This document shows, in pieces, positions 2,547-4,816 of a DNA stretch of 64,000 nt. A model generated the notes under the pieces. That model did not search any database, was not told the origin of the DNA, and saw only the letters and a list, made by a program, of their open reading frames with translations. The position numbers and the translations under genes are program-made. Each line of letters opens with the position of its first letter. Position 1 is the first letter of the stretch. The DNA comes from Mycolicibacterium arabiense (lineage in GTDB: Bacteria > Actinomycetota > Actinomycetes > Mycobacteriales > Mycobacteriaceae), in the NCBI RefSeq assembly GCF_010731815.2, contig NZ_AP022593.1, positions 4,712,001 to 4,776,000 on the forward strand, given 5' to 3'.

Positions 2547-2849
2547 TCAGGCGACCTTGACGTCGACTTCGTGGATGCCCGCGCCGGACGGGGCGACGGT
2601 CGCATCGCCGTTGCCGACCTTCGACAGCGCGCGCAGCGTCCACGTGCCGGGCGCGGCGAAGAACCGGAAGTCACCCGTCGCCGACGCCACGACCTCGGCG
2701 GTGAACTCGTCACTGCTGTCGAGCAGGCGCACGAACGCACCGCCGACGGTCTGTCCCGAGCCGTCGACGACGCGACCGGTGATCACCGTCTCCTTCTCGA
2801 GGTCGACGCCTGCGGGCAACGTCAGTCCTTGTTTCGGTGCAGAGCACAT
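2547..2849 (-). CDS. sseC2: DUF1416 protein SseC
   Basis: A 100-residue DUF1416 protein, orthologous by context to Rv0814c (sseC2), always found next to the cysA-type sulfurtransferase in mycobacteria. The start MCSAPKQG lies one base after the cysA2 stop, so the pair is co-translated. The sequence forms a small beta-rich domain (VVDGSGQTVGGAFVRL, GDFRFFAAPGTW) resembling carboxypeptidase-regulatory-like folds. The single conserved Cys2 could be functional. Its role in sulfur metabolism is inferred from the fixed gene pairing; the biochemistry is unknown. Confidence 0.9.
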   Translation of the reverse strand: MCSAPKQGLTLPAGVDLEKETVITGRVVDGSGQTVGGAFVRLLDSSDEFTAEVVASATGDFRFFAAPGTWTLRALSKVGNGDATVAPSGAGIHEVDVKVA

Positions 2850-2850
2850 A

Positions 2851-3684
2851 TCAGCTTCCCAACTCGATCGGGGCTCCCACGAGGGAGCCATATTCCGTCC
2901 AACTGCCGTCGTAGTTCTTGACGTTCTTGTGACCCAACAGCTCCTGCAGCACGAACCAGGTGTGCGACGAGCGCTCACCGATGCGGCAGTAGGCGATGGT
3001 CAGCTTGTCGCCGTCGAGGCCGGCGTCGGCGTAGAGCTTCGCCAGGTCCTCGTCGGACTTGAAGGTGCCGTCCTCGTTCGCGGCCTTGCTCCACGGCACG
3101 CTGATGGCGGTGGGGATGTGGCCGGCGCGCTGGCTCTGCTCCTGCGGGAGGTGGGCCGGGGCGAGGATCTTGCCGGAGAACTCGTCGGGGGAGCGCACGT
3201 CGACGAGGTTCTTCTCACCGATCGCGGCGATCACCTCGTCGCGGAACGCGCGGATGTCGTTGTTGGGGGCCTTGGCCGAGTACGACGTGGCGGTGCGGTT
3301 GGGGACGTCGGTGACCAGCGGGCGACCGTCGAGTTCCCACTTCTTGCGGCCGCCGTCGAGCAGCTTGACGTTCTCGTGGCCGTACAGCTTGAAGTACCAG
3401 TAGGCATACGCCGCGAACCAGTTGTTGTTGCCGCCGTACAGGATCACGGTGTCGTCGTTGGCGATTCCCTTGTCCGACAGCAACTTCGAGAACTGCTGCT
3501 GGTCGACGAAGTCACGCTTCACCGGATCCTGCAGTTCGGTCTTCCAGTCGATCCGGACGGCGCCTGCGATGTGGCCGCCCTCGTAGGCGGTGGTGTCCTC
3601 GTCGACCTCGACGAAGACGGTGTTGGGGGCGTCGAGGTTGTTCTCGGCCCACTCGGTGGTGACCAGGACGTCGGAACGTGCCAT
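2851..3684 (-). CDS. cysA2: thiosulfate sulfurtransferase (rhodanese) CysA
   Basis: A 277-residue two-domain rhodanese that moves sulfane sulfur from thiosulfate to an acceptor thiol or cyanide. The N-terminal rhodanese domain (about 10-130) is catalytically silent. The C-terminal domain (about 145-270) carries the active-site loop CRIGERS with the persulfide-forming Cys233. The start ATG at 3684 follows a GAAAGGACCC ribosome site; the longer frame upstream runs into the DUF4395 gene and lacks family similarity. It forms one transcription block with DUF4395 (26 bp gap) and sseC2 (1 bp gap), downstream of the poly-Cys leader that probably controls it by cysteine supply. Confidence 0.95.
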   Translation of the reverse strand: MARSDVLVTTEWAENNLDAPNTVFVEVDEDTTAYEGGHIAGAVRIDWKTELQDPVKRDFVDQQQFSKLLSDKGIANDDTVILYGGNNNWFAAYAYWYFKLYGHENVKLLDGGRKKWELDGRPLVTDVPNRTATSYSAKAPNNDIRAFRDEVIAAIGEKNLVDVRSPDEFSGKILAPAHLPQEQSQRAGHIPTAISVPWSKAANEDGTFKSDEDLAKLYADAGLDGDKLTIAYCRIGERSSHTWFVLQELLGHKNVKNYDGSWTEYGSLVGAPIELGS

Positions 3685-3710: not shown

Positions 3711-4172
3711 TTATGACGACGGTGCGGGTGCCCGGCGCAGGCGTGCGACGAGCGGGTACAGCTGGCAGCCGAGGCAGATGCCGAAGGCGGCGTTGAGGAA
3801 CGCGGCGACGAGTGCGAACGCCGTCGCGGCGAGGCCCACCGGACCCCACCCGACGCCGAAGGCGACGGCGCCGACCACGGCGAAGAACAAACCCACCGAC
3901 TGGGCGAACTTGAGCGGGGGCACCGGCTCGGTCTCGGTGACGGGCCGCAGGCGGGGTGCGATGACGCTGGCGAACACCCGACCGTAGGGATTGCGGCGAG
4001 GGCCGCCGACCGCCCCGATGGCGAACACGACTGCCTGTGCGGCGAGAACGACCGCCGCCGCGGCGTAGCTCGCCACGGAGGCGAACAGTGCCGCGACGAG
4101 CACGGCCGTCGTCACCCAGGCGGTGAAGCGGGGACCACGAACGTCGACCTGACCTATGTTCTGGTTCGGCAC
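3711..4172 (-). CDS. DUF4395 membrane protein
   Basis: A DUF4395 integral membrane protein of 153 residues with about four hydrophobic spans and a C-terminal CLGC (CxxC) motif in GICLGCQLYPL, suggesting a membrane thiol/disulfide or sulfur-handling role. I set the start at the GTG at 4172 because a perfect AAGGAG lies 7 nt before it; the in-frame ATG at 4220 lacks one. It is the first full-length gene after the cysteine-rich leader, so its ribosome site is the likely output point of the attenuator. Members of this family commonly neighbour thioredoxin and rhodanese genes; the exact substrate is unknown. Confidence 0.85.
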   Translation of the reverse strand: MPNQNIGQVDVRGPRFTAWVTTAVLVAALFASVASYAAAAVVLAAQAVVFAIGAVGGPRRNPYGRVFASVIAPRLRPVTETEPVPPLKFAQSVGLFFAVVGAVAFGVGWGPVGLAATAFALVAAFLNAAFGICLGCQLYPLVARLRRAPAPSS

Positions 4173-4192
4173 GTTGATGCTCCTTGGAATGC

Positions 4193-4221
4193 TGTGGTCA
4201 CAGGGCTGGGGGCACACCACA
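4193..4221 (-). promoter_or_regulatory. possible attenuator stem before DUF4395
   Basis: On the minus strand TGTGGT (4221-4216) can pair with ACCACA (4198-4193) across a 17-nt loop, ending 8 nt before the AAGGAG of DUF4395. This could be part of the structure switched by translation of the leader peptide. The stem is short, so support is weak. Confidence 0.35.
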
Positions 4222-4260
4222 TGGGTCTGCTCCGAGTGCGGCTCTAAACGGCGCGGCTAC

Positions 4261-4353
4261 TCAGCAGCTACGACAACAACAGCAACAACCCGCAACGCGG
4301 CACAGGTCCACTGCGCGGCGCTTGGTGAGCAACTGCTCGAGGCGGGCTGACAC
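4261..4353 (-). CDS. leaderless poly-cysteine leader peptide (cysteine attenuator)
   Basis: A 30-codon sORF from GTG 4353 ending in GCCCCCRSC, with seven Cys codons in its last thirteen; an in-frame ATG at 4362 would add three residues. The -10 box TAGTAT lies exactly 7 nt before the GTG, so the mRNA should begin at the start codon (leaderless). Poly-cysteine leaderless sORFs that act as cysteine-responsive attenuators of downstream sulfur operons are known in mycobacteria (work on M. smegmatis by Canestrari and colleagues, recalled). Here it precedes DUF4395-cysA2-sseC2 by 88 nt. Inference: ribosome stalling at Cys codons when cysteine is short changes RNA folding and exposes the downstream AAGGAG. 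Confidence 0.88.
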   Translation of the reverse strand: MSARLEQLLTKRRAVDLCRVAGCCCCCRSC

Positions 4354-4360
4354 GTCCGAC

Positions 4361-4366
4361 ATACTA
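4361..4366 (-). promoter_or_regulatory. promoter -10 of the poly-Cys leader
   Basis: The hexamer TAGTAT (minus strand) fits TANNNT and is followed by 7 nt and then the GTG of the leader peptide. A weak -35 candidate TTCGTC lies 17 nt upstream at 4389-4384, just inside the end of thiX. This gives cysA2-sseC2 an internal promoter independent of lmeA-thiX. Confidence 0.7.
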
Positions 4367-4393: not shown

Positions 4394-4816
4394 TCAGGCC
4401 AACAGTGGTTCGAGCGCAGACCGCAGGTCAGCGGCCTTGGGCACGCCGGTCATGCGGAAACGCGGGCGACCGTCGGCGCCGAACACGATCGTCGTCGGCA
4501 GCGACATCACCGAAAGGCGCCGCGCCGCCTCCGGATTGGCATCCATGTCGATCTCGACGTGCGCGACGGCAGGCAGCTCGGCGCAGACCTGCTCCACCAC
4601 CCGACGCACGGCCACGCAGGGTCCGCACCAGGTGGCCGTGAAGTGCAGCACCGTCGGTCCGGTGGTCGACAGGCCCAGACCCGAGGTGTCGACGTCGGCG
4701 GCCTTCTCGGCGTCGCGCAACATGCCCGCGCGCAGCGTCACCAGCCTCCCGACGACCAGTGCGACGCCAACCGCGGCGATCAGCACCGCGATCACGACGA
4801 TCATCGAAGAACTCAT
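4394..4816 (-). CDS. thiX: membrane-anchored thioredoxin-like protein ThiX
   Basis: A 140-residue thioredoxin-fold protein. Residues 3-27 form one transmembrane segment; the thioredoxin domain follows with the classical active site WCGPC (about 63-67) and a cis-Pro loop SLPTT (about 104-108). The domain probably faces the outside, where it could reduce or exchange disulfides. It corresponds by position to Rv0816c. Its start overlaps the lmeA stop by 4 bp (ATGA), so the two are coupled. A separate promoter for the cysteine leader begins just after it, so its link to cysA2 expression may be only partial. Confidence 0.88.
   Translation of the reverse strand: MSSSMIVVIAVLIAAVGVALVVGRLVTLRAGMLRDAEKAADVDTSGLGLSTTGPTVLHFTATWCGPCVAVRRVVEQVCAELPAVAHVEIDMDANPEAARRLSVMSLPTTIVFGADGRPRFRMTGVPKAADLRSALEPLLA

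Follow-up and report, generated by a model that had tools for sequence, protein, structure and literature searches.

A Cys-rich leader peptide of the Ms5788A family upstream of the DUF4395-cysA2-sseC2 operon of Mycolicibacterium arabiense and its relatives among Actinomycetes

A leaderless Cys-rich ORF precedes DUF4395-cysA2-sseC2

The stretch of DNA analysed here (the window) comprises 64,000 nucleotides of the M. arabiense contig NZ_AP022593.1, and the features of the locus described below all lie on its minus strand. A short ORF occupies positions 4261..4353; it starts at a GTG (4353-4351), runs for 30 codons up to a TGA (4263-4261) and translates as MSARLEQLLTKRRAVDLCRVAGCCCCCRSC. The GTG is preceded by a -10 box, TAGTAT (4366-4361), at a distance of 7 nt (spacer GTCGGAC), which we read as a leaderless promoter. 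Seven Cys codons are found among the last 13 codons, arranged 1 + 5 + 1, with the run of five reading TGT TGC TGT TGT TGT (4273..4287). The core motif of the peptide, from L0 to C16, LTKRRAVDLCRVAGCCC, corresponds to positions 4279..4329 and ends at the TGT codon of C16 (4279..4281), a Cys position written as UGU in almost every relative examined. Downstream of the leader stop codon, a spacer of 88 nt (4173..4260), without any terminator-like site, contains the Shine-Dalgarno (SD) sequence AAGGAG (4180..4185), which falls inside the region complementary to the Cys tract. The first gene presumed to be controlled encodes a DUF4395 protein (3711..4172; PF14340, E 4e-41), whose GTG start at 4172 was placed from the SD sequence. 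It is followed by cysA2, encoding a rhodanese-type sulfurtransferase (2851..3684; PF00581, two stretches), and by sseC2, encoding a DUF1416 protein (2547..2849; PF07210), whose start we assigned to an internal ATG of the ORF 2547-2978. Immediately upstream of the leader lies a thioredoxin-like gene (4394..4816; PF00085), which we take to be thiX. The sequence-only reading of this locus had given the same ORF length, Cys codon count, promoter spacing and placement; re-reading of the sequence bore out the first three, and the Pfam domain matches of the downstream ORFs the last.

The peptide belongs to a family that already has a model. It reaches 52.7 bits against the NCBIfam equivalog NF042933 ('Ms5788A family Cys-rich leader peptide'; cut-off 45) and also exceeds the cut-off of NF042934 (putative leader peptide, cis_reg_atten). 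The earlier remark that normal gene finders do not call the element is out of date, since this dedicated model is part of NCBIfam, which is described as an annotation resource of NCBI. Shell et al. (2015; Fig 7A) presented, in front of cysA2/Msmeg_5788, an orthologous leaderless Cys-rich sORF that is occupied by ribosomes in M. smegmatis. Later papers citing Canestrari (2020) state that attenuation in M. smegmatis depends on cysteine, a review reports that expression in this species rises on cysteine limitation via stalling, and one later paper terms the system translation attenuation. As these sources describe them, Ms5788A of M. smegmatis and the cysA2 sORF of M. tuberculosis resemble the window leader in their position before the operon, their leaderless layout and their Cys-rich end. 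The window leader differs from them in its species and in an SD region without the CAACAGGAG form, and the likeness is read through the model and the published description. The match to the polycysteine leaders of M. smegmatis and M. tuberculosis, as first proposed from the sequence alone, is supported by the NF042933 score, by the orthologue of Shell et al. and by the conservation of both the Cys codons and the leaderless layout. The window leader is a new species' copy of the known Ms5788A-type attenuator and is in essence already explained; on its own, it extends a published mechanism to one more mycobacterium and contributes little beyond that.

Two further leaders of the same genome exceed the cut-offs of their own models and precede different operons. 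The Ms4527A-type leader of nirA (positions 10223-10128 of locus L145, minus strand) scores 49.5 against NF042936 (cut-off 45), and the Ms4533A-type leader of subI (positions 2804-2896 of L145, plus strand) scores 49 against NF042937 (cut-off 31). The nirA leader starts with a CAGAAT box, 7 nt and GTGATG, and it has in common with the cysA2 leader the RRxVD-x8-C spacing with a UGU codon, whereas the RRxVD motif is absent from the subI leader. A second NirA-domain match in this genome (G000:C2:5805301-5805738) is read through one TAG and may represent an alignment overrunning its frame.

Cys leader peptides were described by Seliverstov et al. (2005) in Mycobacterium, Propionibacterium acnes and Bifidobacterium longum. 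As presented in that source, these are likewise short ORFs with Cys codons located before a cys operon or cbs and devoid of a terminator, but Rho was put forward there, and neither the UGU nor the RRxVD feature appears in the portion of the description available. A reannotation of S. lividans lists eight leader peptides, and the cysteine type is absent from the list as accessible. No description of the UGU or RRxVD feature was found in the literature searched, which included few subscription journals and mostly not full texts.

Conservation of the leader within and beyond mycobacteria

Inside the M. arabiense genome, four tandem Cys codons occur 63 times (29 forward and 34 reverse). When all 63 matches (56 loci) were inspected, the window leader was the only one in an ORF shorter than 70 codons whose ATG, GTG or TTG follows a TANNNT box at 5-8 nt. 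A chance run of Cys codons was rejected as an explanation on these grounds, the leader being the sole leaderless short ORF in the set. No other close copy of the peptide was found in this genome, the next matches (E 0.08 and 0.85) lying in frames of 85 and 83 aa that are not leader-like. The leader was not assigned to an Rfam family, since its only match, mir-978, reached 19.8 bits where the gathering score is 100, and the viral contigs gave one pattern match and no relative.

To this single-genome comparison we added 80 named relatives, out of 296 confirmed by tblastn, which were fetched through DUF4395 alone. Nearly all of them belong to Mycobacteriaceae, the nearest being at 95%. The leader is kept in 74 of the 78 relatives that could be tested (71 with the motif in frame and three, L038, L046 and L080, in diverged form), the upstream sequence of L078 and L081 being too short. 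Conservation of the Cys frame in relatives had been set beforehand as a test of the sequence-only reading, and it was found (71 of 80 with the motif in frame, plus the three diverged cases). A TANNNT box precedes the start codon in all 71 motif-bearing relatives, at 7 nt in 68 and at 6 nt in three, and the start codon is GTG in 64 of the 65 distinct sequences and ATG in the remaining one. The leader is absent at the DUF4395 loci fetched from M. persicum, M. gastri, M. asiaticum and M. simulans (L018, L019, L041 and L062), which may reflect either lineage loss or a second DUF4395 copy. At these four loci (about 2700-3020) the thioredoxin gene is joined straight to DUF4395, and the fetched stretch carries no cysA2 marker. 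In L046, a MAG, a decayed leader, LTSCCAVEPRCTAGSCCRC, is located about 300-170 nt before position 3001; R3, R4 and D7 are lost from it and the Cys codons are kept, UGU at C16 among them.

Beyond the named relatives, the peptide profile A1 matched at E <= 0.001 in at least 313 of 401 Mycobacteriaceae genomes and in at least 265 of 298 genomes drawn from the order, and at E <= 0.01 in at least 282 of 394 genomes from the class; the three genome sets overlap, and the counts are of profile matches, not of individually inspected loci. Forty distant matches, hand-picked among the matches listed, were inspected. Of these, 36 have a TANNNT box located 6-8 nt ahead of a start codon, and 38 have a DUF4395 or cysA2 marker at most 1200 nt downstream.

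We also ran a search anchored on cysA2, in order to avoid a choice of loci based on the motif. The set comprised 32 genomes, namely the first 29 in list order present only in the class set and three genomes of the family without a profile match; 30 of them matched and gave 30 loci, and one genome (G666) is common to the profile-found and anchored sets (L202 and L240). Twenty-three loci (L237-L259) are close to cysA2 (65-76% identity), while L260-L266 are rhodanese loci at 43-58% identity, of which L260 (58%) is cysA2-like at its N-terminus. The leader is present in 22 of the 23 close loci: 19 were found through a loose motif, and three (L239, L247 and L251) in a motif-free scan that looked for leaderless Cys sORFs. 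Each of the 22 leaders starts with ATG or GTG, and a TANNNT box lies 6-7 nt ahead of that codon. In L258 neither the loose motif nor the motif-free scan revealed a leader, and the motif-free scan detected no leaderless Cys sORF at the seven loci of 43-58% identity. The leader is present in species such as Nonomuraea gerenzanensis and Tsukamurella tyrosinosolvens, and the family reaches well beyond mycobacteria. NF042934 is a broad model, with several leaders from outside Mycobacteriaceae also above its cut-off, but L239, L251 and L257 fall below the cut-off or have no match. As for plasmid-borne cysA2, no leader was found before the copies of Streptomyces sp. NBC_01454 and of M. gilvum (pMSPYR101, L269), and one is present in a Tsukamurella plasmid record (L270).

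Predicted pairing of the Cys tract with the ribosome binding site and the probable mode of attenuation

Taking the anatomy and the published systems together, we consider it highly probable that the leader is an Ms5788A-type, cysteine-responsive translation attenuator of the DUF4395-cysA2-sseC2 operon; in simpler terms, this tiny Cys-rich gene at the start of the message probably works as a cysteine gauge. Transcription would begin at the G of the GTG, and a ribosome would initiate at the very 5′ end of the mRNA and translate as far as the Cys codons. With ample Cys-tRNA, the ribosome would finish the leader and leave, and the Cys tract would pair with the ribosome binding site (RBS) of DUF4395 and keep operon translation low. 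With scarce Cys-tRNA, the ribosome would stall at the Cys codons and cover the tract, so that the RBS would be freed and expression would go up. For M. arabiense itself, we infer the transcript start, the stalling and the effect of stalling.

Complementarity between the Cys tract and the RBS is a property of the mycobacterial leaders as a group. In an RNAalifold analysis of 32 of them, columns 68-84, which hold the Cys tract, were paired with columns 213-231, which hold CAACA-GGAGC around the DUF4395 SD sequence; the covariation term was small (-1.15). The predicted duplex between the Cys tail and the RBS reached -18.2 kcal/mol, against -13.1 kcal/mol for other windows; among the 67 distinct mycobacterial leaders, 93% had their stronger duplex at the RBS. 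Redrawing the Cys codons synonymously across mycobacteria did not weaken the duplex significantly (p 0.11). Predicted RBS openness rose from 0.39 with the tract free to 0.53 with a ribosome at C16 and was higher in 58 of 69 leaders. Because removal of RNA tends to open the remainder, we included a length-matched control, in which masking 31 nt at the tract gave 0.50 and masking other 31-nt windows 0.40, the former being higher in 60 of 69. The start codons used in these comparisons came from a script; of 130 loci, 6 had none and were dropped, and in at least one case (L226) cysA2 was taken instead of DUF4395. At the level of the group, the folding predictions fit translation attenuation in mycobacteria.

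Folding of the window's own RNA is mixed to contrary. Predicted RBS openness was 0.64 for the full leader, 0.52 with the stalled ribosome and 0.45 for the 3′ part lacking the tract, so that the predictions agree with the model only against the tract-free 3′ part and otherwise run contrary to it. Masking the tract closed the RBS (0.47, compared with 0.64 unmasked and 0.54 with other windows masked), and the SD sequence alone had a predicted openness of 0.74 at full length and of 0.36-0.42 with a ribosome inside the Cys run. The SD region of this species lacks CAACA, and its duplex (-16.9) is weaker than those of synonymous redraws (-17.9) and stronger than those of other windows (-13.2). Our confidence in attenuation is high and not higher because the tract-masking control goes the wrong way for the window.

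These mixed predictions leave some room for attenuation at the level of transcription, in which the finished leader would expose the spacer to Rho or to a terminator, transcription would end before DUF4395, and stalling would prevent that. For their cys leaders, which lack a terminator, Seliverstov et al. (2005) proposed Rho and rated that prediction as rather weak. Terminator-like sites are likewise few in the present set: the counts were 4 among 69 mycobacterial spacers (2 when each was shuffled once), 3 among 11 spacers of other Mycobacteriaceae genera (0 shuffled) and 3 among 37 from outside the family (0 shuffled). In the window, no intrinsic terminator separates the leader from DUF4395: between 4000 and 4500 a single terminator-like site was found, within the sORF itself (4308-4287), where 0.4 would be expected by chance in this interval. 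Rho, however, would not need the tract-to-RBS complementarity that is conserved in mycobacteria, and the published account that names a mode for M. smegmatis speaks of translation attenuation. We regard termination before DUF4395 as unlikely and retain translation attenuation as the preferred reading.

A UGU codon behind a conserved peptide motif

In the anchored leaders, L0, R3, D7 and C16 are each present in 22 of 22, with the Cys eight residues after the Asp (D-x8-C), and C16 is separated from the stop codon by 2-3 codons. The invariance of R3 and D7 is partly built in, because 19 of the 22 were selected with a pattern that contains both; L0, the position of C16 and its codon are not part of that pattern. 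R3 is encoded by five different codons. C16, in turn, is UGU in all 22 anchored leaders, in all 28 profile-found leaders from outside Mycobacteriaceae, in 11 of 12 from other Mycobacteriaceae genera and in 70 of 72 of the named set plus the window, as well as in the diverged L038, L046 and L080. For comparison, the share of UGU among Cys codons is 16% at the anchored loci (18 loci), 20% at the profile-found loci, 26% in the other family genera, 17% by named loci and 25/150 in the window, as counted in nearby long frames with GC-rich third positions instead of annotated genes. Fisher tests run with these counts take no account of relatedness among the loci. Where the anchored peptides have a Cys at position 9, its codon is UGC in 13 of 15 cases.

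Pairing with the RBS was rejected as the cause of UGU outside Mycobacteriaceae. In 43 loci, the duplex of the Cys tail was -12.1 with the RBS and -12.7 with other windows; complementarity to the RBS does not exceed that to other windows, so such pairing does not explain the codon there. Masking the tract outside Mycobacteriaceae still opens the RBS slightly (0.48 versus 0.44; 24 of 37), and predicted openness was higher with a stalled ribosome in 27 of 37.

From the core on, the 22 anchored leaders contain one (4 leaders), two (8), three (8) or four (2) Cys codons, and the 28 profile-found leaders outside Mycobacteriaceae one (2), two (7), three (17) or four (2); counted over the whole ORF, the named set (mycobacteria plus Nocardia and Prescottella) has six to nine in 70 of 72 and five in two. 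With one to four Cys codons and an invariant UGU at C16 in the anchored leaders, the poly-cysteine run therefore appears to be a late elaboration. The comparison suggests that the run is derived and that the leader is older than it and centred on one Cys codon; the wider conserved feature outside the family appears to be the peptide motif with one UGU codon behind it at a fixed distance, and not the Cys run. This is what the survey adds to the published system, and it sharpens a question: if several Cys codons are all that the textbook model requires, why has a whole bacterial class kept one particular codon (UGU) and a peptide motif?

We then considered whether this conservation acts on the peptide or on the RNA. 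Pairwise differences at codon positions 1, 2 and 3 amounted to 1464, 691 and 3974 among 55 distinct mycobacterial cores, and to 1391, 643 and 3543 among 36 distinct cores of L189-L228. The pN/pS of the 12-codon core was about 0.24 in mycobacteria and 0.25 in L189-L228 (range 0.23-0.25), for sequences picked by the motif. Variation concentrated at third positions together with low pN/pS suggests constraint at the level of the peptide. Constraint on the RNA is present too and is not fully separated from it: a hairpin in the RRAVDLC region is 99% paired in the mycobacterial leaders, 96% in those from other genera of the family, 80% in the profile-found class members and 72% in the anchored ones (best slid controls, 0.61-0.62), and the cores fold on average more stably than synonymous redraws (mean z -0.24, -0.78, -1.12 and -0.81 in four sets). 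As a sufficient cause of the conservation, this hairpin was rejected, given that at most 6 of its 8 pairs remain in 14 of the 22 distinct anchored cores, and those 14, like all 22, keep UGU at C16. That the ORF is a chance run, with the conservation coming only from an RNA element or from the neighbouring genes, can draw on the RNA pairing that does exist, in the RNAalifold consensus and in the hairpin. We hold it to be extremely improbable, as third codon positions change most in both core sets, and the alignment shows a conserved start, frame and end of the ORF next to a variable spacer.

In TnaC-type arrest peptides, conserved residues lie at a fixed distance upstream of the stall codon. 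The likeness to the present leaders would be one of working principle only, as the signal here would be a shortage of Cys-tRNA. The nascent peptide may itself act, with L0, R3 and D7 in the exit tunnel aiding a stall with UGU C16 in the A site; one codon would then suffice, and the Cys run of the family would have been added later. We put this forward tentatively, and it is compatible with RBS sequestration. Several observations are consistent with it: the four invariant positions with C16 at fixed spacing and R3 written with five codons, the low pN/pS of the core, the leaders in which a single Cys codon is counted from the core onwards (4 of the 22 anchored and 2 of the 28 profile-found outside Mycobacteriaceae), and the nirA leader of the same genome, which keeps L-x2-R-x3-D-x8-C with UGU. 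They are weakened by the choice of loci, R3 and D7 being in the selection pattern for 19 of 22 and the pN/pS sets being motif-chosen, by the RNA constraint seen in the hairpin and the core folds, and by L046, which lacks R3, R4 and D7 yet keeps its Cys end. In its broadest form, which we consider possible but doubtful, there would be an Actinomycetes-wide cysteine sensor made of one UGU at a fixed distance behind an arrest-like motif, L-x2-R-x3-D-x8-C, in which the nascent chain would sensitise the ribosome to Cys-tRNA at that codon, and the mycobacterial poly-Cys run would be a later amplifier that also covers the RBS. Should the nascent chain participate, the 'polycysteine attenuator' would be just one form of a more ancient sensor of the arrest type.

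The two distant profile matches without a DUF4395 or cysA2 marker, L214 and L215, are followed by genes for a PF03601 protein and an SBP_bac_11 protein. Both are motif-bearing ORFs with a single Cys codon (UGU) from the core on and without a TANNNT box, and at these loci the motif may serve other operons.
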